A DNA stretch of 41,808 nucleotides from Candidatus Poseidonia sp. (GTDB lineage Archaea > Thermoplasmatota > Poseidoniia > Poseidoniales > Poseidoniaceae): contig JAURDA010000005.1 of NCBI GenBank assembly GCA_030828165.1, positions 25,076 through 66,883 of the forward strand, written 5' to 3'. Below are positions 3,001 through 41,808 of the stretch, piece by piece; the first letter of the stretch is position 1; every line of letters begins with the position of its first letter. A program made the translations under genes and the position numbers. The notes below the pieces were generated by a model that was not told where the DNA came from, did no database searches, and saw only the letters and a list, made by a program, of their open reading frames with translations.

Positions 3001-3905
3001 CCAACGGGTGGGCGGCGATTCTCGGGTTCCTCCAGCGAGACGTCGCCTGGCTCGGGCGCAACAACGCCGTCTCCATTCATCGCACGCGTGATTTGGTCGA
3101 TGCGAGTCCCGAAGAATGGCAGGCCTTCTTGGAAGGCGAGATGGACTTGCCCCCGAGAGGGCGGCTTGCACGCATGCTTGCAGCCGACCTCGCGCTTCGC
3201 CATGCTGCACCCGTTGCGGTGGAATGGTCGCCCACCACCGAAACGGAGCGTTCGGTTGAGTTGGTGGCGCCGTCCGAAGACGACGGCATCGAGGGGCTTC
3301 GCTTGTTCGGCTACGCCGATCGCGTGGACGTGTTGGCCCTCACCGAGACGCAGGAAACGAAGCTTCGTGACCTTGGCGTTCTCGGTGATGCCTCTTTTGA
3401 CACCCCCTATCCGCTTGACGGCACACCCCGCACTGCCCAGCGACTTGTGGTGATTCGGGATTTGAAGACCGTGAACGGTCCGGCCCCGAAATACATCGGG
3501 TTGCGTCACACGCGCTGTTTGTTTGAGGACCTTCAGTTGGCCCTGTATGGTCGCGCATGGGAGTTGTTGCACCCCAACGACCGCGTCGTTGGTGTTGGGG
3601 CGTCCGAAATTGGAGAATCCACCGTGCACTACGTCGAGTTGGACAGCACCCTTGCCCCCATTGACGAGACCTTGGCCATCGGTGAACTCACCCGGTACTT
3701 CCCCCTTCACTTTCCCGCTGAGGACGACCAAGGAAGGACGATGTCATCGTTCCGACGCTGGATGGTCGAGCGGCTCAACGTGGCTCAACGGGCCGTAAAC
3801 ACCGCAGCCTCAGGCCACATCAACCCGACGCCGGGCACGCACTGCCAGTACTGTTCAATTTCAAGCTCCTGCGGAGCAGCCGTTGGTTTAGGAGGCGGGA
3901 ACTGA
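96..3905 (+). CDS. AddB-like helicase-nuclease subunit (PD-(D/E)XK, 4Fe-4S type)
   Basis: Likely the AddB/RexB-type subunit of a heterodimeric helicase-nuclease that resects double-strand DNA ends. The N-terminal ~850 residues have a UvrD/RecC-like layout but no Walker A motif, so this subunit probably does not hydrolyse ATP. A RecB-family nuclease domain fills the C-terminal third. It has SPSRLEAWLKCPRQAW around residue 895, then an Asp-x-Lys pair (D1122, K1124, in IRDLKT). Cysteines 902, 1250, 1253 and 1259 give the C...C-x2-C-x5-C pattern of the B. subtilis AddB iron-sulfur staple. The product is about 1269 residues, near the size of AddB. GTG 96 was chosen because of the TATA-like box 26 bases upstream; TTG 87 and ATG 165 are alternatives. 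The stop overlaps the next gene start by one base (TGATG), so the two are probably cotranscribed. The subunit assignment is inference; the nuclease domain is clear. Confidence 0.82.
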   Translation: MLDESRRVPSRSVVAVEGARLSKMSAQHHVSSEYVPAGRGPPTWLSNALQSRPSLNVIVVHPNELHRQQTLERLHQAGAEVSPNLHLTLNRLVRLLHTDLRLPVLLDDDASNGLALHARCIKAAEEGLFPFLHVPGVGAWTMAKTHRLQRLHAELMHLRWPFEWDNDPGAATYHRLVLEHQAEVGGTLPVLVLRSVVEALSKDDGIMPFHLSSIDGVVMLNTAPDYTEVEQDLLLAISRFKPVHQLLCPGSFRLGHHGAYLVDEPPCTEESLPSWLPPHEVWTPAEDGWRTPVSDERETVVSRITVDERNDVMMATQTLVQAFCSTSQGPVLIIDGSARERTDAWSKALADIGLRWGGRAKTLDEHPLHHALLQTARLAQGMSAWSLSSLQRLWFSSTLPVVDDMFPHLTHPVHEDWRPRPDPSVLEDLARQFHVLGGPGAIARWLGVLSNARPSFAERRPDLKRQTLEETQWWLACLLRAWAPLLAPEDRHLLKVQPEGCSSGAPLPLPDSPGDGRSWLGWLLSVMDVEVFSQRRVPHDVGLGTLQNILDSLQTVTTHLSRCGLEMPLEGKGFVDVLEHLGSSVSMNHLASKTANVHVVSPEDALGCEAELIVLAGLDVDAWGMRTPVVPWLDAGAQVQLGTFQADRLVRRGRHHLRHLLNAAPTVVVLDSTPEEGGGPSAPLAEWLSDVRRTGAWAAMREPPSFLTPEMTEGESEARRFRWEVREEGHGSWLTPVRNIVQTGPSGQRRLSRGHSKADVRQQLGMDLHGLHPFGDGLNNPTSLFDGFEAAVQADRSRRQPSHRDLAEGETLSWEHRSSMLTTDGVVLRPTKAALASAGVLAPAWPHLGHRPEKAVSLAVDPRPLPPYTVDDLPFHHRFGLDAAPYRREVWSPSRLEAWLKCPRQAWVKQCLSADDVEGLEAEDVDARTRGQVVHDAEAALLEGHGVPMGGEMEEGILPLHLGPMGATPNGWAAILGFLQRDVAWLGRNNAVSIHRTRDLVDASPEEWQAFLEGEMDLPPRGRLARMLAADLALRHAAPVAVEWSPTTETERSVELVAPSEDDGIEGLRLFGYADRVDVLALTETQETKLRDLGVLGDASFDTPYPLDGTPRTAQRLVVIRDLKTVNGPAPKYIGLRHTRCLFEDLQLALYGRAWELLHPNDRVVGVGASEIGESTVHYVELDSTLAPIDETLAIGELTRYFPLHFPAEDDQGRTMSSFRRWMVERLNVAQRAVNTAASGHINPTPGTHCQYCSISSSCGAAVGLGGGN

Positions 3906-6900
3906 TGATTCAATTCAACACCAGCCAACGGTTGGGATTGGACCTCGACCGCCACATCGCTTTGGATGCAGGTGCTGGTACGGGCAAGACCACCGTCATG
4001 GCCGAGCGCTATGTTCAGCACCTGATGGCCGCCCAACAGCGAGCAACCCTCGTCACACCCCTCGGACCTCGAACACCCTTGAGCGGCCACGGTGCCCTGC
4101 GAACACCCAAGCGAGAACGCACCGAGTTATCGCATTGGCCCGGGCTATTGCCTTCCGAAGTCGCCGCCATCACCTTCACGAGGAAATCCGCTGCGGAGTT
4201 GAAGGAACGAATCCGCCACCGCCTGTCCTTGAGTCGGGCAGCACCCTTGGCTCATGATGATGACGAAGGGATTCACGACCCTCGCCTGAGAAGCGAGGGC
4301 GACGTCGAGATGCTGCTCTCGGCGCTCGATGAAGCGCCCATCTCCACCATTGACGCCTTCCTCAACCAACTCGTGCTTCCGTTCATCGATTTGGTGGCTC
4401 TCTACCCGTCCAATCAACAGGTAACGGAGGAACGCGCACCGCTGATGTTGCGCGACACCTTGCATGCCGTTTGGCGAATACGCTCGGTGGACGATGCCCG
4501 AGAAGCGGGCGTGCTCAACCACCACGACGCCTTCCTCGAATCAAGAACCCGCTTGGTCGCACGTCTGGGCGGTCAAGATCAGGCCGAGGTGGTGCTCAAC
4601 GGTCTTTTGGGGCGCTCGCTCTTCGTTGAGCAATCTCACCGCTCCATGATACAACAAGCACAGGACATGGGCTTGGGCTGGAACGGACGGGGGCCCGCCC
4701 CCATCGAGGTCCTCTTGAACACCATCGCCGCACCGGTGGCCGACATTCTTCCCGAGTTCGTTGAAAGCGTGGCCCATCAACTGCGAGGGTGGCTGGATGA
4801 GTTTGCGCCCTACCACGCCTCCTGCGTGACACCCGCAGAAACCGAAACCGTCTTGACGCGCTACAACCACCTGCGTCGGGTCCTTTCCAGTCCACCCTCG
4901 GATGAGCCTGGCGAGCAGTTGTCTTGGATGTGGCAAGTCTTCCTCGGGTTGGCGACCGGTTCAGGTCTCGTCAAATCCCAATGCACCTTTTTCCCCCGCG
5001 GGCACCTTCCGAGCGGAGATGAATGGCCTTCCGGTCTCTTGACGAAATCCAACGTACGGGGGATGCCGGGCGCCGATAAAGATGCGCTCTACGCACGGGC
5101 TGCAGCGCGGCTGCCACCGTTGCTCGAACGGTTGAACTCGACCGACGGGACCCTGATTCGTCTTCTTGCACGTTCGGCTTTCTTGCTCTCACCGGGCACG
5201 GGGTTTGACGGCATGCCGCTCGATTGCCCGCTCCGCCTTGACCCGCTTGAGGAACCGCTCCCGCTCGAGCCGACGGATCGGGAGATGTACGTCACCTCTT
5301 CCTTGCAAACCGAGGTCCTGAGCGATCTCATGGTTCTTCACACCGGTTGCCAGCAAATTTTGGCGAGGAGAAAATCGCTTGACGGTATGCATGATTTTGA
5401 CGATATGCAACGCTTTGCTGCCGACCTTTTGCTCGCCCGATGTCCCGATGTCTGCCGTCACCTCTACCCTCCCGAGGTCATCGATGTGCTCGACGGCCTC
5501 GGTGACGAGCCGTGGAGCGACGTCCACGTTTCCCGTGCGCTGACGATGCTGAACGACCGACCACAACTCCAAGAGGACCTCCAGCGCCGGTTTTCCATTC
5601 TCAGCGAGCTCCGCCGTCAATACAGGGCGTTCATCATCGACGAATACCAGGACACCAACCCGTCGCACTATCGTTTGCTGGCTCGCCTCTGGGGACGGCG
5701 AAGGCGAGAGAGTGACGACCCGGAACGGCCCTTTGGTCCGTGGGACCCGACCGTTTGCATCGTTGGTGACATGAAGCAGAGCATCTACAGGTTCCGGCAA
5801 GCAGAAGTTTCCGTGATGCGGCGTGCCGTGGCCGCCATTCGTGCGTTCAACGCCATGGAGTTTGGCGATACGCGGCTCGACCACCTCCGGCATCCCGGTT
5901 GCGGTCGTGACCCAAGACCGGTGGGTGCTGGTGGTGAAACGGGCTCGTTCTCCAACGAACACACCGGAGAGGGTTCGGCTCCGTACACCCACGTACCGTT
6001 CGCCGACGAGGACGATACGACCTTCCCTTCCATCACCGGAGAACGTCTGGTTCGTCGGACGGAAGGTCACGTTGACTTGACTTCGAACCATCGAACACGC
6101 CACGATTTGATGGAGACCATGAACGACATGTTCGACGAAGTTTTCCATCCACGCCACCACGAACTCCCCGGCGACTGGCACGCCGAAGCGCAGCGTTTGC
6201 GGCCGGCCCGTTTGTTGGAAGACCCGGGTGTCTTCGAGTGGCTTTTGCCCATCGCCGGCCCGGTCACGGCCGCTCCGCTTGACCTCGATGAAGCGGTCGA
6301 TGCCTTCCAAGACCCGTCGGCCACCTCGGTTCAGCGGGAGCATCAACTGCTCGCCGACCGGCTTCATGCGCTCCTTCAGCACGCTCCGACACGAGTATGG
6401 GATGCAACCAACGCCGGCTGGCGGACCGTTGGTGAGCAAGGTCCCGAAGTTCGTCCACAGGACATCATGATCCTCGTCAACTCGCGAAAGCACCTTCCGG
6501 ATTTGGTCGAACGACTTCGTGGGCGAAACATCCCGGTAATGGCGGACCGGCAAGGCTTGTTGCTCGCCCAACCTGTGGTTCAACCGCTGATGGCCCTGCT
6601 CGCCTTGATGGCCCGCCCAAGCGCTCGTTCCTCGGCTTTCGTCCTCGCTCGCTCACCCGTCATCGGCATGACCGAGCGACAGGTCCAGAATGCGCTCGTG
6701 GCGACGCCAGCCGGGCAGAGTCTCTGGCCCGCTCTTCTCGAGCATGCTCCGACCGAACCCGTTCGGGCGTTGCTGAACGACCTCCATCGCCTGATCCAAT
6801 GGGGGGCGGTTTACGATGCGTTTGACGCCGTTTTGGACCGGTCCGATCTCCTCGTCGCCTACCCCGACGATGCTCAACGCCAGTTTGCCGAGGCTTGGTT

Positions 6901-24500: not shown

Positions 24501-27500
24501 GCATGCCGGGGTGGGTCATGTTGCTCACGTCTAAGCCCCCGCCGTTGTTCATGGCTCGCAGCGTCAACGGCAGGGCCCGACGCATGCTGATTTCTTGCAC
24601 CGGCGTGTACTGTCGGTTGTTGGCCCAGCCTTGGAGGCCGTCCTCGGTGATGATCCAAATCGTATCCGCACCCAAGGTTCCACCGGTGACGCTGCCCGGA
24701 CGGAAGGTTTGCAGGGAAGCGTGCGCGAACGTTCTGGCTTCGACCAGCATGCCGTCGTTTTGACCGCCCAGGGCCAAAATTTGGTCGCCGTTGCTGAACA
24801 TGCTGTGGACGGGGTACTGCACTTGAGTGAAGCGAACCCCGTCTTCAAAATCACCGCTGGAGGCGTTCCAGTGGGTCAGCGGCCAGCCGTCCGTTGCGAT
24901 GTGCAGGCCCCACCAATCGCTGGTGAGTGAGGTGACGGTGTTGGACGGAAGTTGGTCGAAGCGGTGGGTTGACGTGACCTGCTGGGTGGTGGCGTCAACG
25001 ATGCTCACGCCGGGTCGCTCTGCGCCCCGTCCGTCGTGGCTGACGAGAATGGAGACCGAGCCTGAACTGCTCGTGTGTTTGACCAAACCCCAAGCGGATT
25101 GCCCCATCAAACCGTTGGCGGTCGTCATGGTGGTGCCGTTCCCCGTGGAGGCGTCCCAAACGAACACGCCGGAAGGTGTGGCCATGTAGATGTCGTCGCC
25201 GACCGAGACCACGTCTTCCACGATGTCGTTGGGCAATCCGTTGCCTGCGGTTATGGAATCCATCCAATCGTTGGTGCTGTAATTCCACCGGCCGATGCCG
25301 CCGTTGGTGGCGATGTAGAGAACGTCCGTCGTGGAGGTGAACCCGTTGACGATGTTGGACGGGAGGCCAGCGATGAGGCGACCGTTCCCGAATTGCCCGG
25401 TGGACGGGTCAAACATTTGCACGCCCGGTGGACTTCCACCGTCACCTGCGAGGCCGATCACGTATTCGCCGTTGTAGAGGTGCATCGTGTCGAACTTCCC
25501 GTGCAGTGAGCCCGAAATGGCCGTGATGGACTGGGTTCGGAGGTTGAGTTTGTACAACCCGTCGGGGTTTGAGGCGATGTACAAATCGCCCCCGTTGAGC
25601 ATGAGGTCGTTGGCGACGGTGTTGCCCGGAAGAGTCCACCCGTACGTCCACTCAACGCTGCCGTTGGGCAGGAAGATGCCTTGGAGCAGTCCGGTGCCGC
25701 TCCCTCCGAAATTTCCAGCGCCGCCCGTTTGTCCGCCTCCGGTTGCGACCCAGATGTGGGTGCTGTTGGCGGTCATGGCGGAAACTTGGCCGCTGACCAG
25801 TCCGGGGAGGTCGACGATCTTCTGCATGCCGTTTGACGACAGGCTCGAAACGTGGCTGTAACCGGAGGCGCCGCCGGCTTGACCGATGAGCCATTGCGAT
25901 GAACCGCTCTGCCATTGGAAGGAGGTCACGGAGGACCCACCGCTGTACACCTGAGCCTGAAGCGCTGTGGCGCCGTTGGCGACCAAGGCGGAGTAGCCTC
26001 CACCAATGACGTTGGTTCCAGAAAGGCCGATGCCGTGTCCAACGAGGAGCTGCGTGCCGGAATGGGCGAGACCGTCGTACCAAACGCGGTCGCTGGGCAG
26101 GTTGTGGCTTGAGGTGGTGAGGCTGGAAAGGAAGGCTCCCGAAACGTAACTGTAGCGGGAAACGGGTTGGTTGTCGTTGTAGTAGCCGATGTACAGGGTG
26201 TCCTGGGCGTCGCAGGTGACGGATGCGGGCCCAATACCGTCGAGTTGCGTTCTGGCGAGCGGCGTGAGGGTTCCGTTTTGCAGGTCGATACGGGCGATGC
26301 CGCCGTTACCGTTGTACATGGCGACGTTGAGCACGCCCCCGCACATTTCCATCGAAATCGGATAGCCGTCCGGAACGTTGGCCAGAGAGTCTGCCGGGTA
26401 GGTCGTCCATGCTCCGGAGGCACTGAGGTGGGAAATAATCCCCTCTTGGAAGCCGCCGAAGTTGCTGAAGCGAGCGCCACCGATCGCGAGGTCGTTCCCG
26501 TCGGTCCACAGTTCGAAGAAACGGCTCCCAGCGTTGGTGGGCAGGCCGTTGCCCGCTTCCCACTTTGAGTTCCACTGGTTGGTGGTTTCGTTGTATCGGA
26601 GCACGCCGTCTTCGGTTGCAAACAAGGTTTCACCGTCGTATTCAACGATGCCTCGAATCGGGAGGTCAAACGAGGTCCACGAGTTCACGAGGGAACGGTT
26701 GGCGTCGTAAAGGTCCAGTTTCAATTCGCCCCACGCCACCCAAGTGTTGCCGGCGGACGATTCGTAGGCGGTGACGCGGTCGATGGAGCCCGTTGGAAGC
26801 ACGTTTGGAGCGAACGAGGTGTTCACCGTGTCCCAGCGAGCGATGCCACCCGACCCGTCGGCGTTCCACCACTGGCCCGAGACCACGCTCACCAGCAACT
26901 CGTTGCCGACGATTTCCATGGACGTGATGTCGCCCCCGTTTTCGCCGACTTGTGCCCCGATGTCGAGGTTGCTGAGCGCCGTGACGTTGGCGACGTCAAG
27001 GCGACTGACTTCATCGCTTGCCGTGTTGGCGTGATAGTAGAGGATGTTGTTGTGAATCACCATTTCGTGGGGCGGTCCAGAAGCGGTGTAGAGGTTGCTG
27101 TTGCGTTCGATGTCAAAGGCTTCAAAGCCGTTCGTGACGTTGATCAGTTGGAAACCGTCGTCGCCGCCAACCCAAAGCAGATTGGGGCGGATATCGGCGA
27201 CCAAACCCGTCACGTCGTCGTTTCCACCGTCGAGAACACCGTTGTCTTCGTTGAACGGCGTTAACCACTGATTGGAGGTGATGTTGTAGCGCAGCACGCC
27301 CAAGCCTTCCGTGCCGATGTAGGCGATGTCTCCCATGATCTCCACCACGGCGTTTCCTGTTTGGGTTCCTTCGCCCCAGTTCGTGTCGTGTTGGAAATTC
27401 GATTTGGTGATGAGTCCAACGCCGTCGTTGGTGCCCCCATAGACGTAGGATGCATCCACACCCACGCTGTAGGTCGCCCAGTTGGGCATGCCGTCGTAGA

Positions 27501-36050: not shown

Positions 36051-36557
36051 GTGTCAAGTCAAGGGTTCCACGTGAGTTTCCCCCAAGACCAACCGTCCTT
36101 TTCGGGACTTCCCATGGAACTCGACGAGCTTTCGCCCGACGAAACCCTCCCCTATCCGCTGCCTGACGGTGCCGTGGTCGTGACCATCGAAGCCGCCCGT
36201 GCTTCGCTCAGCGAGGCCAGCAGCGTGCTGATGGTGCTTCAAGCGATGAGCGACGAAGCGCACGACGTCACCGATGAACTGGAAATGTTGCTCGACCGTT
36301 ACCCGATGACCCACCCCCACGTCATGGAGGTGGCTGAACATCTCGGTCAACTCGTCGCCCAGTGGCAAGCAAACGTCGCCCGGCTGGAGTCCGTGGGTGC
36401 TCGGATCGTCTCCATGGAACCCGGGCGCTTGGAATGGTACGGGGTTGTCGACCGGCGAATGGCTTTGTTTTCCTGGGCGGTTGGGGAAGAAGACATCGAG
36501 TGGTATTACCGAATGGAGGAAGGCTTTCCTTCCCGCAAACCCCTCATAGAGGCTTGA
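36051..36557 (+). CDS. DUF2203-like protein
   Basis: A 168-residue soluble protein resembling the DUF2203 family, whose function is unknown. The first conserved part is TIEAARASLSEASSVLMVLQ, the N-terminal helix with a tail of helices (ELEMLLDRYPMTHPHVMEV). The C-terminal signature is MEPGRLEWYGVVDRRMALFS, then WAVGEEDIEWYYRMEEGFPS and RKPL. It corresponds to the family pattern GLVDFPA-x-DGR-x-VYLCW-x-GE-x-E-x-x-WH-x-x-x-GF-x-R-x-P. The usual WH is WY here. The proposed start is GTG 36051; ATG 36114 would remove 21 poorly conserved residues. It precedes the cobalamin adenosyltransferase by 24 bases, so they may share a transcript. Confidence 0.7.
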   Translation: MSSQGFHVSFPQDQPSFSGLPMELDELSPDETLPYPLPDGAVVVTIEAARASLSEASSVLMVLQAMSDEAHDVTDELEMLLDRYPMTHPHVMEVAEHLGQLVAQWQANVARLESVGARIVSMEPGRLEWYGVVDRRMALFSWAVGEEDIEWYYRMEEGFPSRKPLIEA

Positions 36558-36581: not shown

Positions 36582-37277
36582 ATGGTTCGAATCAATCGCG
36601 TGTACACCGGTGGTGGCGATGGAGGCGAATCCTCCTTGGTTGACGGCTCACGTCGGTCAAAAGGTGACCCGAGGTTTGACGTGGTTGGGGTTTGCGACGA
36701 AGTCAACAGTTGGATTGGAACGGTCTTGATGGAATTGGAGCGCTTGCCCGAGCATGAAGACGGGGGCGACCGAACGGGGGCGAAGCGCGTTCAAAACGTC
36801 GCCTGCGAGGCCCTTTCACGGGTGCAAAACGAATTGTTTGACCTCGGAGCCGAGTTGGCCTGTCCGCCGGCAACCCTTCCCGAATACATGGTGCTTCTCT
36901 CCGAGGCCCAAACCGATGTCTTGGTGGCCGAGATGGACGCTTGGTTGGAGGACCTTCCCGAATTGACGAGTTTCATTCTCCCGACCGGTTCGCCCCCGGT
37001 CGCCTTTCTTCACCTTGCGCGAACGGTGACCCGCCGTCTGGAGCGGGGCGCTGTCCAACTCGGAGAACACGAGGGCGAAGGAGCGGTGCGTCCGGGGGTG
37101 CTCGTGTACCTGAACCGGCTGTCTGACTGGCTCTTTGTCCTCGGTCGCTGGGTCGGGCACATGCTGAACGAAGACGAGACGCTTTGGGTGCCTTTGGGGA
37201 AGCGACCCGCTGAACGAGGCGTGGCTCATCGCGTGGCCCAAATTCGCTCCAACGACGATGACTTTTCCACGCTTTGA
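36582..37277 (+). CDS. Corrinoid adenosyltransferase, PduO/MMAB type
   Basis: ATP:cob(I)alamin adenosyltransferase, making adenosylcobalamin. The N-terminal ATP-binding signature is VYTGGGDGGESSLVDGSRRS followed by a lysine and aspartate (KGDPRF), and then GVCDEVNSWIG. The C-terminal helices contain LARTVTRRLERGAV and YLNRLSDWLFVLGRW, which form the trimer-interface active site in PduO and human MMAB. The length of 231 residues is slightly above the usual ~190. No other cobalamin or methylmalonyl-CoA gene is nearby, so the consumer enzyme is unknown; methylmalonyl-CoA mutase or a class II ribonucleotide reductase are common ones. The start has a GAGGGGG ribosome-binding site 5 bases upstream. 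It abuts, end to end, the Nudix gene on the other strand. Confidence 0.92.
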   Translation: MVRINRVYTGGGDGGESSLVDGSRRSKGDPRFDVVGVCDEVNSWIGTVLMELERLPEHEDGGDRTGAKRVQNVACEALSRVQNELFDLGAELACPPATLPEYMVLLSEAQTDVLVAEMDAWLEDLPELTSFILPTGSPPVAFLHLARTVTRRLERGAVQLGEHEGEGAVRPGVLVYLNRLSDWLFVLGRWVGHMLNEDETLWVPLGKRPAERGVAHRVAQIRSNDDDFSTL

Positions 37278-37688
37278 TCATTGTCGGCCGTGGAGTTGCG
37301 CAAAGCGGTGGGCTTGCTCAACCACGGCTCGGGTCTCGTCGTGGGTGATGGTGTCCAGCGCTTGTTCCCAGTCCAGCCACAGGTAACCGCGATGTTCGTG
37401 GGAGAGCGTAACGCTGAGTTCTTCGGTTTCGGCATAGTACCAGTAGACCTCCTTCGTTTGACGCTTCCCTTTGTGGCGGAACGTGTACTCGGTGCGCTCC
37501 TCAAATCCCTCGATGATGGTCACGTCGCGTATGCCGGTTTCTTCGGCCAGTTCGCGCAGCATCGTTTCGTGCCGGTTCGCATCGTCGGCCTCCACGTGCC
37601 CTTTTGGAAGGTCCCAGTGACCTTGCGGGTATTGAAGCAACAGGATGGCCCCGTAGTTCACCAACACCACGCCGCATGAGGTCTCCAT
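37278..37688 (-). CDS. Nudix hydrolase, Ap4A hydrolase-like
   Basis: A 136-residue Nudix enzyme, probably bis(5'-nucleosyl)-tetraphosphatase-like. The N-terminus SCGVVLVNYGAILLLQ and WDLPKGHVEADD match the Ap4A hydrolase group. The Nudix box continues as HETMLRELAEETGI, with the catalytic REL-x-EE-x-G intact. The box has one extra residue after GHVEADD relative to GX5EX7REUXEEXGU, and Asp replaces the first Glu. The C-terminal VYWYYAETEE and HEHRGYLWLDWEQAL are typical of NUDT2-like proteins. It would remove dinucleoside polyphosphates made by aminoacyl-tRNA synthetases. The ATG at 37688 faces the DHH gene divergently. Its stop is adjacent to that of the adenosyltransferase gene. Confidence 0.88.
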   Translation of the reverse strand: METSCGVVLVNYGAILLLQYPQGHWDLPKGHVEADDANRHETMLRELAEETGIRDVTIIEGFEERTEYTFRHKGKRQTKEVYWYYAETEELSVTLSHEHRGYLWLDWEQALDTITHDETRAVVEQAHRFAQLHGRQ

Positions 37689-39050: not shown

Positions 39051-41396
39051 TTATTCCTGTTCGTTGCCCTCGTCGTTTGAGGCTTGCAGTGCTGGTTGGG
39101 CGTGGGCTTTGTTTCCGCTCAAAAACGAGGGCGCCCACCAGTTCCATTTGCCCATGAGGCGCATCGTCGAGGGCACCACCAGGGCTCGAACCAGGGTTGC
39201 ATCAACCAGAATCGCCAGGGCGAGGCCAAGGCCGATCTGTTTCAAAATGATCACCGAAGAAAGACCAAACGCACTAAACACGACGACCATGATGGCGGCT
39301 GCACCGGTGATGAGGCCACCGGTTTTCTGAAGGCCGTTGGCGACGGCAAGGGTGTTGTCGCCGGTACGTTCCCATTCCTCATGGATGCGGGAAAGCATCA
39401 GCACTTCGTAATCCATCGAGAGTCCAAAGACGATGCAGAACATGATGACGGGATTTCCCGAGTCGATGGGTTGGGCCGTGAAATTGAGCAGGGATTCGCC
39501 GTAGCCCCACTGGAACACCCAAACCAACATGCCGAAGGAGGCCGAAATCGAGAGGATGTTCATGGCGATGGCTTTGATCGGAATAACGACCGATTTGACC
39601 TGAACAAAAATCAACATCATCGTGGCGATGAGGATGAAGGCCAAGGCTCGGGGGAGGTTGTCGGCGATGGCGTCCAAATTGTCGGCGTTGTAAGCAGCGA
39701 AACCGGCGACGAGCAACCGGTCGTTTTCACCGGTCAACTCGTCCAAAAACGCGTCCCGTTCATCCCGGATGTCCTCCACCGTTTCACGGGAATCAACGCT
39801 GGTTTGCGCTCCGACCAGTTGCACCGACATCAGGGTTGCGTCTTCGCCCACAAAGGCGGCTCGAAGGCTCTCCCGCATCGCCGCTTGTTCGCCAAGCGCT
39901 TCGGCACTCGCTGACCAATACCCGACGACTTCATCGGCGGTCATGGTCGCCATTGGAAGGCCCACGCCGATGCCCCCGGAGACCCGACTGTCGTTGAGCA
40001 GTTGGGTAAGGTACGCATGCTGGGCGCGCAGGTTGGCCTCCGAAAGCGGGTCCTCGCCGTCCATGTCCACGACGAGGAAGATGGAGTTCGCCGATTGGTC
40101 GGGCCACTGTTCGTCGATGAGTTCCATGCCGAGACGGGATTCATCGTCGGGGGGTAGCGCCTTCCACGACGAGAGGGAAAATTCGGCGTAGGCAAAGGGC
40201 AGTCCCGCACCGACCAACAAAATCAGCGTGGGAATCAGAACCGTCCAAGGCCGGTCCATCACCCGCTTGGCGATGCGAGCCCACACACCGTCGTCCTTGG
40301 CCCGCATGTCCAGAGCAAAGGGAACACGACCGCTGTTGACGCGAGGTCCAAGCCAAGCCATCACGGCGGGCAACACCACGGTGGAGTAGACCATGGCGAT
40401 GGACACGGCCATCGTCCCTCCGATGCCGAGGGAGGGCAAGGAGGTGTTTTGGAAAAACAGCATTCCCATCAAGCCGATGGCGACGGTGATGCCGGAGTAG
40501 AAGACGGCCTTGCCGGCCGTGGCGCAACTCATCGCCGTGGCCGTTCGAACGTCGTGGCCTCGGTCAAGTTCCTCCCGAAATCGGTTCACCAAGAAAAGAG
40601 AATAATCGATGGAAACACCGATGCCGATGAGGGAGATGATGTTGGTTGCATAGACCGTGACGTCGGTGACGTTCGACAGCCACACGGTCATGCCGATGGC
40701 GGCGAGCACCGTTCCAACGCCAACACCAACGGGAAGCAGCGCAGCGACGATCGACCCGAAGACCATGCCAAGAATGAGCAGGGAAAGGGGTCCGGAAATC
40801 AGTTCGGCCTTGATGAGGTCGTTTTTGATACGGTCATCAAAGGTCCAATCGATGAAAATACCGTCCGTCATCCACCCTTCAAAGTCGCCCCCGATGCTGA
40901 CCGTATCGTGGAGTTCGCCCATGATGGCTTTGGCCTCCTTGCGGTCGGTTGACATCCGAACGGTGTTGATGGCGTACGTCCCCTCCTCGTCGCTTGCGAC
41001 GACATCGTCCCGGTCGACGTCGCTTGCCTCCCATGAATATTCAACGGTCACGTCGGGGTGTTCGGCAAAGGAAGACAGCGCTTCGATAACCGCCGTTTGC
41101 CACGCTTCGCTGCTGTCGTTGAGCGAAGGGTGATGGACGACGTAGCGGAAGCTTTGGCCGCTGTCATCGCCGTCGCTGGCGAAGCGCTCCGAAATCAAAC
41201 GTCCAGCGTTCACGGATTCAACATCGTCTTCGCCAAAACCTTCCGCCCAATCCGCTCCAATGGTCCACAAACCCGCCATCAGAACGCAGGAGATCAAACC
41301 AAGAACCATGACGGTTTTTTGATGGTCGTGAATGAACAAACCCATTTTGTAGAAAGCGCGGTCTTTCAAAACGGCGGGGTCCGTCGCACCTTCCAT
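39051..41396 (-). CDS. MMPL/RND-superfamily transporter
   Basis: A polytopic exporter-like protein of about 781 residues in two halves. Each half has one membrane helix, an extracellular domain of ~150-200 residues, then five or six helices. In the first half IGIGVSIDYSLFLVNRFREE is the hallmark MMPL/RND helix 4 motif with its conserved Asp-Tyr. The second half has the matching IVFGLSMDYEVLMLSRIHEE. Such proteins use proton motive force to move lipids, hydrophobic compounds or metabolites across the membrane. The tail after the last helix is short (GNKAHAQPALQ). ATG 41396 is chosen over the in-frame TTG 41426 because a TATA-like box lies 26.5 bases before it. No partner adaptor or outer-membrane gene is nearby, as expected for a cell with one membrane. 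Confidence 0.9.
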   Translation of the reverse strand: MEGATDPAVLKDRAFYKMGLFIHDHQKTVMVLGLISCVLMAGLWTIGADWAEGFGEDDVESVNAGRLISERFASDGDDSGQSFRYVVHHPSLNDSSEAWQTAVIEALSSFAEHPDVTVEYSWEASDVDRDDVVASDEEGTYAINTVRMSTDRKEAKAIMGELHDTVSIGGDFEGWMTDGIFIDWTFDDRIKNDLIKAELISGPLSLLILGMVFGSIVAALLPVGVGVGTVLAAIGMTVWLSNVTDVTVYATNIISLIGIGVSIDYSLFLVNRFREELDRGHDVRTATAMSCATAGKAVFYSGITVAIGLMGMLFFQNTSLPSLGIGGTMAVSIAMVYSTVVLPAVMAWLGPRVNSGRVPFALDMRAKDDGVWARIAKRVMDRPWTVLIPTLILLVGAGLPFAYAEFSLSSWKALPPDDESRLGMELIDEQWPDQSANSIFLVVDMDGEDPLSEANLRAQHAYLTQLLNDSRVSGGIGVGLPMATMTADEVVGYWSASAEALGEQAAMRESLRAAFVGEDATLMSVQLVGAQTSVDSRETVEDIRDERDAFLDELTGENDRLLVAGFAAYNADNLDAIADNLPRALAFILIATMMLIFVQVKSVVIPIKAIAMNILSISASFGMLVWVFQWGYGESLLNFTAQPIDSGNPVIMFCIVFGLSMDYEVLMLSRIHEEWERTGDNTLAVANGLQKTGGLITGAAAIMVVVFSAFGLSSVIILKQIGLGLALAILVDATLVRALVVPSTMRLMGKWNWWAPSFLSGNKAHAQPALQASNDEGNEQE

Positions 41397-41418
41397 GATT
41401 GGTTCGGCAAAAAAGGTG

Positions 41419-41426
41419 TATTTCAA
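41419..41426 (-). promoter_or_regulatory. Candidate TATA box of the transporter gene
   Basis: On the reverse strand it reads TTGAAATA, centred 26.5 bases before the ATG at 41396. It mirrors the box before the giant surface-protein gene in sequence and distance. Confidence 0.5.
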
Positions 41427-41510
41427 TCAGCGTTTCATTTGCCCAAAGCCTCCACCGTATCGGGCGTGAAGTGAGGCATCTTGATGAACCGAATGGAGGG
41501 CTCTTCGTTC

Positions 41511-41560
41511 ATGAATCTCAAAGACCACATTCGCAGCATTCCTGACTTTCCCGTCGAAGG
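41511..41560 (+). pseudogene. 5' fragment of an adenine phosphoribosyltransferase gene
   Basis: Starting at ATG 41511 the translation is MNLKDHIRSIPDFPVEG, which matches the highly conserved N-terminus of adenine phosphoribosyltransferase (Apt). Homology stops after about 17 codons. The frame then runs into the antisense of the gene ending at 41570, with no GILFRDIT-type continuation and no PRPP-binding motif. GGAGGGC lies about 9 bases upstream of the ATG, like a genuine gene start. Either the gene was truncated by a rearrangement, or the sequence is joined wrongly here. A chance match is possible but unlikely given the IRSIPDFP core. Confidence 0.6.
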
Positions 41561-41569
41561 AACCCTGCA

Positions 41570-41808
41570 TCAGGCTTCTTCGTCGATGTTGAGTTTCTCA
41601 CGGACGGCTTTCTCAAGTTCCATGGCTTTTTCCGGAGTGATGCCCAATTCCGTGGCGCTTGAGGTCAACAACGTTCGCTCCAAGTCGGTGATGATGCCGT
41701 CGTCGTACGCTGAATGCAAGAGCCGTTCGTACATGTTTTGATTGATGACATCTGAATCGACCATATCGGCTTCAATGATGCGGGAAGCAATGATTTCGAG
41801 CGGAATCA
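41570..41808 (-). CDS. C-terminal part of an unknown protein, cut by the window edge
   Basis: The reading frame is open to the window edge, about 15 codons upstream of the first visible ATG (41764). The residues before that ATG (PLEIIASRIIEAD) look coding, so this is probably the end of a longer protein. The visible ~78 residues are helical: NMYERLLHSAYDDGIITDLE, then RTLLTSSATELGITPEKAME and KAVREKLNIDEEA. The pattern resembles a short EF-hand-less helical or SHOCT/TerB-like domain (DGIITDLERTLLTSSATELG), but I do not recognise the family with confidence. It ends within about 10 bases of the apt fragment. Confidence 0.6.
   Translation of the reverse strand, partial: IPLEIIASRIIEADMVDSDVINQNMYERLLHSAYDDGIITDLERTLLTSSATELGITPEKAMELEKAVREKLNIDEEA

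Follow-up and report, generated by a model that had tools for sequence, protein, structure and literature searches.

A probable chimeric contig tip interrupts the apt gene beside an MMPL-family transporter gene in Candidatus Poseidonia

Chimeric contigs and misassemblies occur in metagenome assemblies. The contig end analyzed here resembles known chimeric metagenome contigs in its abrupt loss of colinearity at the contig end, together with a piece seemingly from a related genome; compared on sequence alone, it shows no evident difference from them. A parallel closer to hand is found in a sister genome, G007, in which the same locus is split between two contigs, C78 and C77. At its start, C78 has 59 bases that recur with 100% identity on C77, where they lie within a permease frame that stays open for 514 residues. 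C77 in turn breaks off within the adenine phosphoribosyltransferase gene apt (residue 60 onward), two bases past the end of the 59-bp match. As its sequence reads, the G007 tip is either chimeric or represents a minority variant with a deletion in apt. Like the tip described below, it falls within apt and at a contig end, and colinearity is picked up again at one end of a different contig (C77). Unlike it, the 59-bp piece has its source in the same genome, ~1.7 kb downstream, and C77 carries it as well, whereas the piece joined here is 248 bp long and its source was not found in its own genome. By analogy, the two cases suggest that apt is a place where genome assembly in this group is prone to fail, and with two genomes of the genus carrying such tips, assemblies may break repeatedly at this locus.

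The window (the whole stretch of 41,808 nucleotides that was analyzed) covers positions 25,076 to 66,883 of contig C73 of a Candidatus Poseidonia genome assembled in 116 contigs and 84% complete; C73 is 66,883 bases long, so the end of the window is the end of the contig. The features near this end are collected in Table 1. The transporter gene and the apt fragment form a divergent pair. The transporter frame extends without a stop to a TTG at 41426, from which it counts 791 amino acids, and its N-terminal 299 residues are 97% identical to those of G018, the closest relative at this locus, in which both genes are colinear with the window and apt is intact.

Table 1. Features at the right-hand end of the window (window coordinates).
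Feature	Position	Strand	Evidence
MMPL-family (RND-type) transporter gene, intact	39051..41396	-	Pfam MMPL, E = 2e-68
apt, first 17 codons, truncated at the break	41511..41560	+	46/50 bases as in the intact G018 apt start
Break point	41560..41561		blastn alignments to G018, G007 and G017 stop at 41560; that to G016 at 41566
Putative foreign tail, 248 bases, reaching the contig end	41561..41808		query 41400-41808 against its own genome matches this place only
Tail gene, last 78 residues and stop codon, cut by the contig end	41570..41806	-	G018:C41, 55% identity; G007:C55, 54% identity

To the left of the break, the contig follows its relatives closely. Positions 41000-41560 align with G018, a member of the same genus, at 88.8% identity over 561 bp, ungapped and with the apt start included, and the alignment ends exactly at 41560. 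Similarly, the alignments with G007 (76%) and G017 (69%) end at 41560, and that with G016 (68%) ends at 41566. On this colinearity, the contig can be trusted as far as 41560.

The first-pass annotation had read here about 17 codons of an apt gene with a ribosome-binding site, broken off some 10 bases before the stop codon of an unrelated reverse gene, and most of this description holds. The apt frame starts with an ATG at 41511, its codons 1-17 read MNLKDHIRSIPDFPVEG, and the apt sequence is left after 50 bases: identity to G018 apt, high before the break, drops to 22/60 in the next 60 bases. The fragment can be called an apt start because the complete G018 protein (171 amino acids) scores above the NCBIfam cut-offs for this enzyme (NF002636, E = 5.6e-65; TIGR01090, E = 1.7e-56). 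The profile similarity expected of the fragment itself came out weaker: the 21-residue reading across the junction hits four NCBIfam apt models with a best E of 0.01, below cut-off, and no Pfam family, since 21 residues are too short for such a search, and it is the DNA alignment that settles its identity. The stop codon of the reverse gene was found where expected, 9 bases beyond the break (41570-41572, minus strand). The ribosome-binding site fared less well, as the GGAGG at 41495-41499 upstream of the ATG is not conserved in G018 or G007 and is best regarded as an unproven candidate. Upstream of the ATG, the apt frame continues without a stop as far as a TTG-ATG (41481, 41484), both in the window and in G018. 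The fragment at 41511-41560 matches intact apt and contains none of the phosphoribosyltransferase domain; as predicted from G018 Apt, it cannot be a working enzyme because the break after codon 17 precedes the start of the Pfam Pribosyltran domain at residue 25.

We searched positions 41300-41808 against the same genome and 38 relatives, 20 of which matched, and examined the loci of 19 of these (the 25-base match in G032 gave no locus). An MMPL match is contained in 17 of the 19 loci, G012 and G004 being those without. Intact apt genes do lie beside this transporter gene in other genomes: six of the 17 loci have a full-length apt adjoining it (G018, G008, G011, G015, G017, and G016), and in a seventh, that of G007, apt is cut at the contig tip. 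In the other ten, covering ~1.5 kb each (G021, G010, G019, G003, G009, G014, G001, G022, G005, and G035), apt was not seen beside the MMPL gene. Along the same lines, an Apt query at E <= 1e-25 matches eight of 30 genomes of the genus, partially in G007, and the genome under study is among the 22 without a match. By this measure, apt is patchy in the genus, and the patchiness, together with the ten MMPL loci without it, implies that real loss or gain of apt occurs in the group. An apt of this type is absent from all five genus genomes with a completeness of at least 90% and a contamination of at most 5%.

What should follow the apt start was sought with 5.7 kb of G018, beginning just before the start of apt. 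Bases 1-88 of this query align to C73 as far as the break, and bases 3026-5700 to a second contig of the genome under study, C36, from its base 1 onward (92% over 2675 bp); the intervening 2937 bases, comprising in G018 the remainder of apt, a permease-like gene, and further sequence, did not turn up in the genome in that search. One end of C36 thus supplies the continuation expected for the locus, and the colinearity break, near a contig end itself, is not shared by the relatives. No match to the last 248 bases of C73 is seen in the G018 apt locus or in the initial 3 kb of C36.

These 248 bases carry the 3' third of a minus-strand gene unrelated to apt, whose frame stays open to the contig end and in which a Pfam scan of the protein found no family above cut-off. 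Its homologues in G018 and G007 are 222 amino acids long; they are preceded by a haem-NO-binding-type (HNOB) gene and followed downstream by a pirin-type gene (the HNOB neighbor was scanned in G018, the pirin neighbor in G007). The stop codon of the tail gene overlaps an ATG (41568-41570, minus strand), as if the next gene started there, with too few bases following; the gene next to the homologue is pirin in G007, and G018 has a similar sequence. The genome under study has its own orthologue of the tail gene on contig C24, which runs to the last base of that contig and is identical to the G018 protein at 148 of 163 residues. On protein identity, the tail is not this orthologue, because the C24 copy stands at 148/163 to G018 and the tail at only 55%; over the 29 residues they share, the two have 16 identical. 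Tail matches at E <= 1e-10 occur in six of 338 other genomes of the class, the best at 55%; a search of the 29 other genus genomes for a second copy, which would miss fragments holding only the 5' part of the gene, gave two such matches in none of them. A viral source finds no relative in viral_contigs. Since the C24 copy differs, no other genome of the genus has two matches, and matches in the class are few, we infer that the tail probably derives from another, unsampled Poseidoniaceae genome, a divergent second copy in the genome under study being the less likely source. Base composition was also considered and proved undiscriminating: the G+C content of the tail (50%) is below that of the window (60%) but close to the values of the 261 bases preceding the break (48%) and of the C24 orthologue (50%).

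The first-pass annotation had left three explanations side by side, i.e., a true rearrangement, the remnant of a deleted gene, or an assembly error, and had warned that, in the event of an error, the sequence to the right of ~41560 might be out of place. The evidence favors that warning and the last of the three. The contig end is very likely a chimeric tip, an artifact of assembly, because the alignment to G018 ends at 41560, C36 continues the locus from its base 1, the tail gene has its orthologue in this genome on C24, and the contig ends 248 bp on. The tip probably joins two Poseidoniaceae genomes of one metagenome. In the course of events that we propose, the assembly would have lost the true path through apt at 41560, leaving ~2.94 kb (as measured in G018) missing before C36 resumes, and 248 bases of other origin would then have been added to the contig, their most likely source being a second, related Poseidoniaceae genome in the sample. 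The join itself would be technical, made by a chimeric read, a clone, or a graph bridge.

A real rearrangement in the lineage or strain, in which recombination or insertion put a divergent copy of the tail gene beside the apt start and inactivated apt, would fit the patchiness of apt in the genus and the open, stop-free frame of the tail. It would also fit the genome's lack of an intact apt elsewhere, where searches returned only other phosphoribosyltransferase-type matches, the best at 37% identity, although the genome is only 84% complete. We nevertheless consider it unlikely, and much less likely than an assembly error: just 248 bp of contig follow the break, C36 begins in colinearity with the far side of the locus, the start of apt has not decayed, and the junction was found in none of the relatives searched. 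More specifically, that a recent rearrangement destroyed apt in one Poseidoniaceae lineage by joining to it a divergent second copy of the HNOB-adjacent gene family appears unlikelier still; if true, the strain would be unable to salvage adenine by way of this Apt. That apt was deleted in a real event that left its first codons behind is highly improbable: 22 of 30 genus genomes, this one included, do lack a match to this Apt, but a simple deletion joins a gene's own downstream flank, and the tail is foreign to the flank seen in G018 and on C36. Furthermore, the relatives aligned through the apt start (G018, G017, and G016) keep apt full-length, the start shows no decay, and the colinear far flank resumes on C36.

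The search for the junction in relatives covered the 38 relatives above (positions 41300-41808) and, less sensitively, 318 genomes of the order, and none was found in the former or, among the matches listed, in the latter. In the latter search, the junction DNA (41515-41605) had some match at E <= 1 in 213 genomes, and among the matches listed, a full-length one is seen in the genome under study only; at most two candidates were scored per genome, and the apt starts that G007 and G017 are known to have do not appear, so this search is a weak one. Among the matches listed, G018 and G015 cover the apt side only, G016 extends six bases beyond the break, and G004 covers 25 bases of the tail side; the remainder are short (E >= 9e-4), and the few that cross the break point are taken for chance. 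The exact 34-base junction pattern has no match in genome_contigs or viral_contigs, collections that possibly leave out this genome and its near relatives.

With a chimeric tip as the preferred reading, the last 248 bases are to be trimmed at 41560, and no statement on gene order should be drawn from this end of the contig. Likewise, this genome should not be annotated as having lost apt or as carrying it as a pseudogene.

The family to which the tail gene belongs has some features of its own. An HNOB protein is encoded directly before it in G018 (C41, 1002-1718), in G007 (C55, 2919-3464), and on C24 of the genome under study; the G018 protein matches Pfam HNOB with E = 2e-39. This arrangement suggests an archaeal NO/haem sensor with an uncharacterized partner. 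A DGIITDLE stretch in the C-terminus of the partner may resemble TerB-like domains. A literature search for H-NOX in Poseidoniales found no paper. One internal TAA is reported in the homologue of a related genus (G110:C67:4052-4282), which may be a pseudogene or a frame end. Elsewhere in the window, a cobalamin adenosyltransferase gene lies at 36585-37274 on the plus strand (Pfam E = 1.3e-47), preceded by a DUF2203 gene (36051-36557, E = 9.3e-17), and a NUDIX hydrolase gene lies at 37278-37688 on the minus strand (Pfam E = 9.6e-17).
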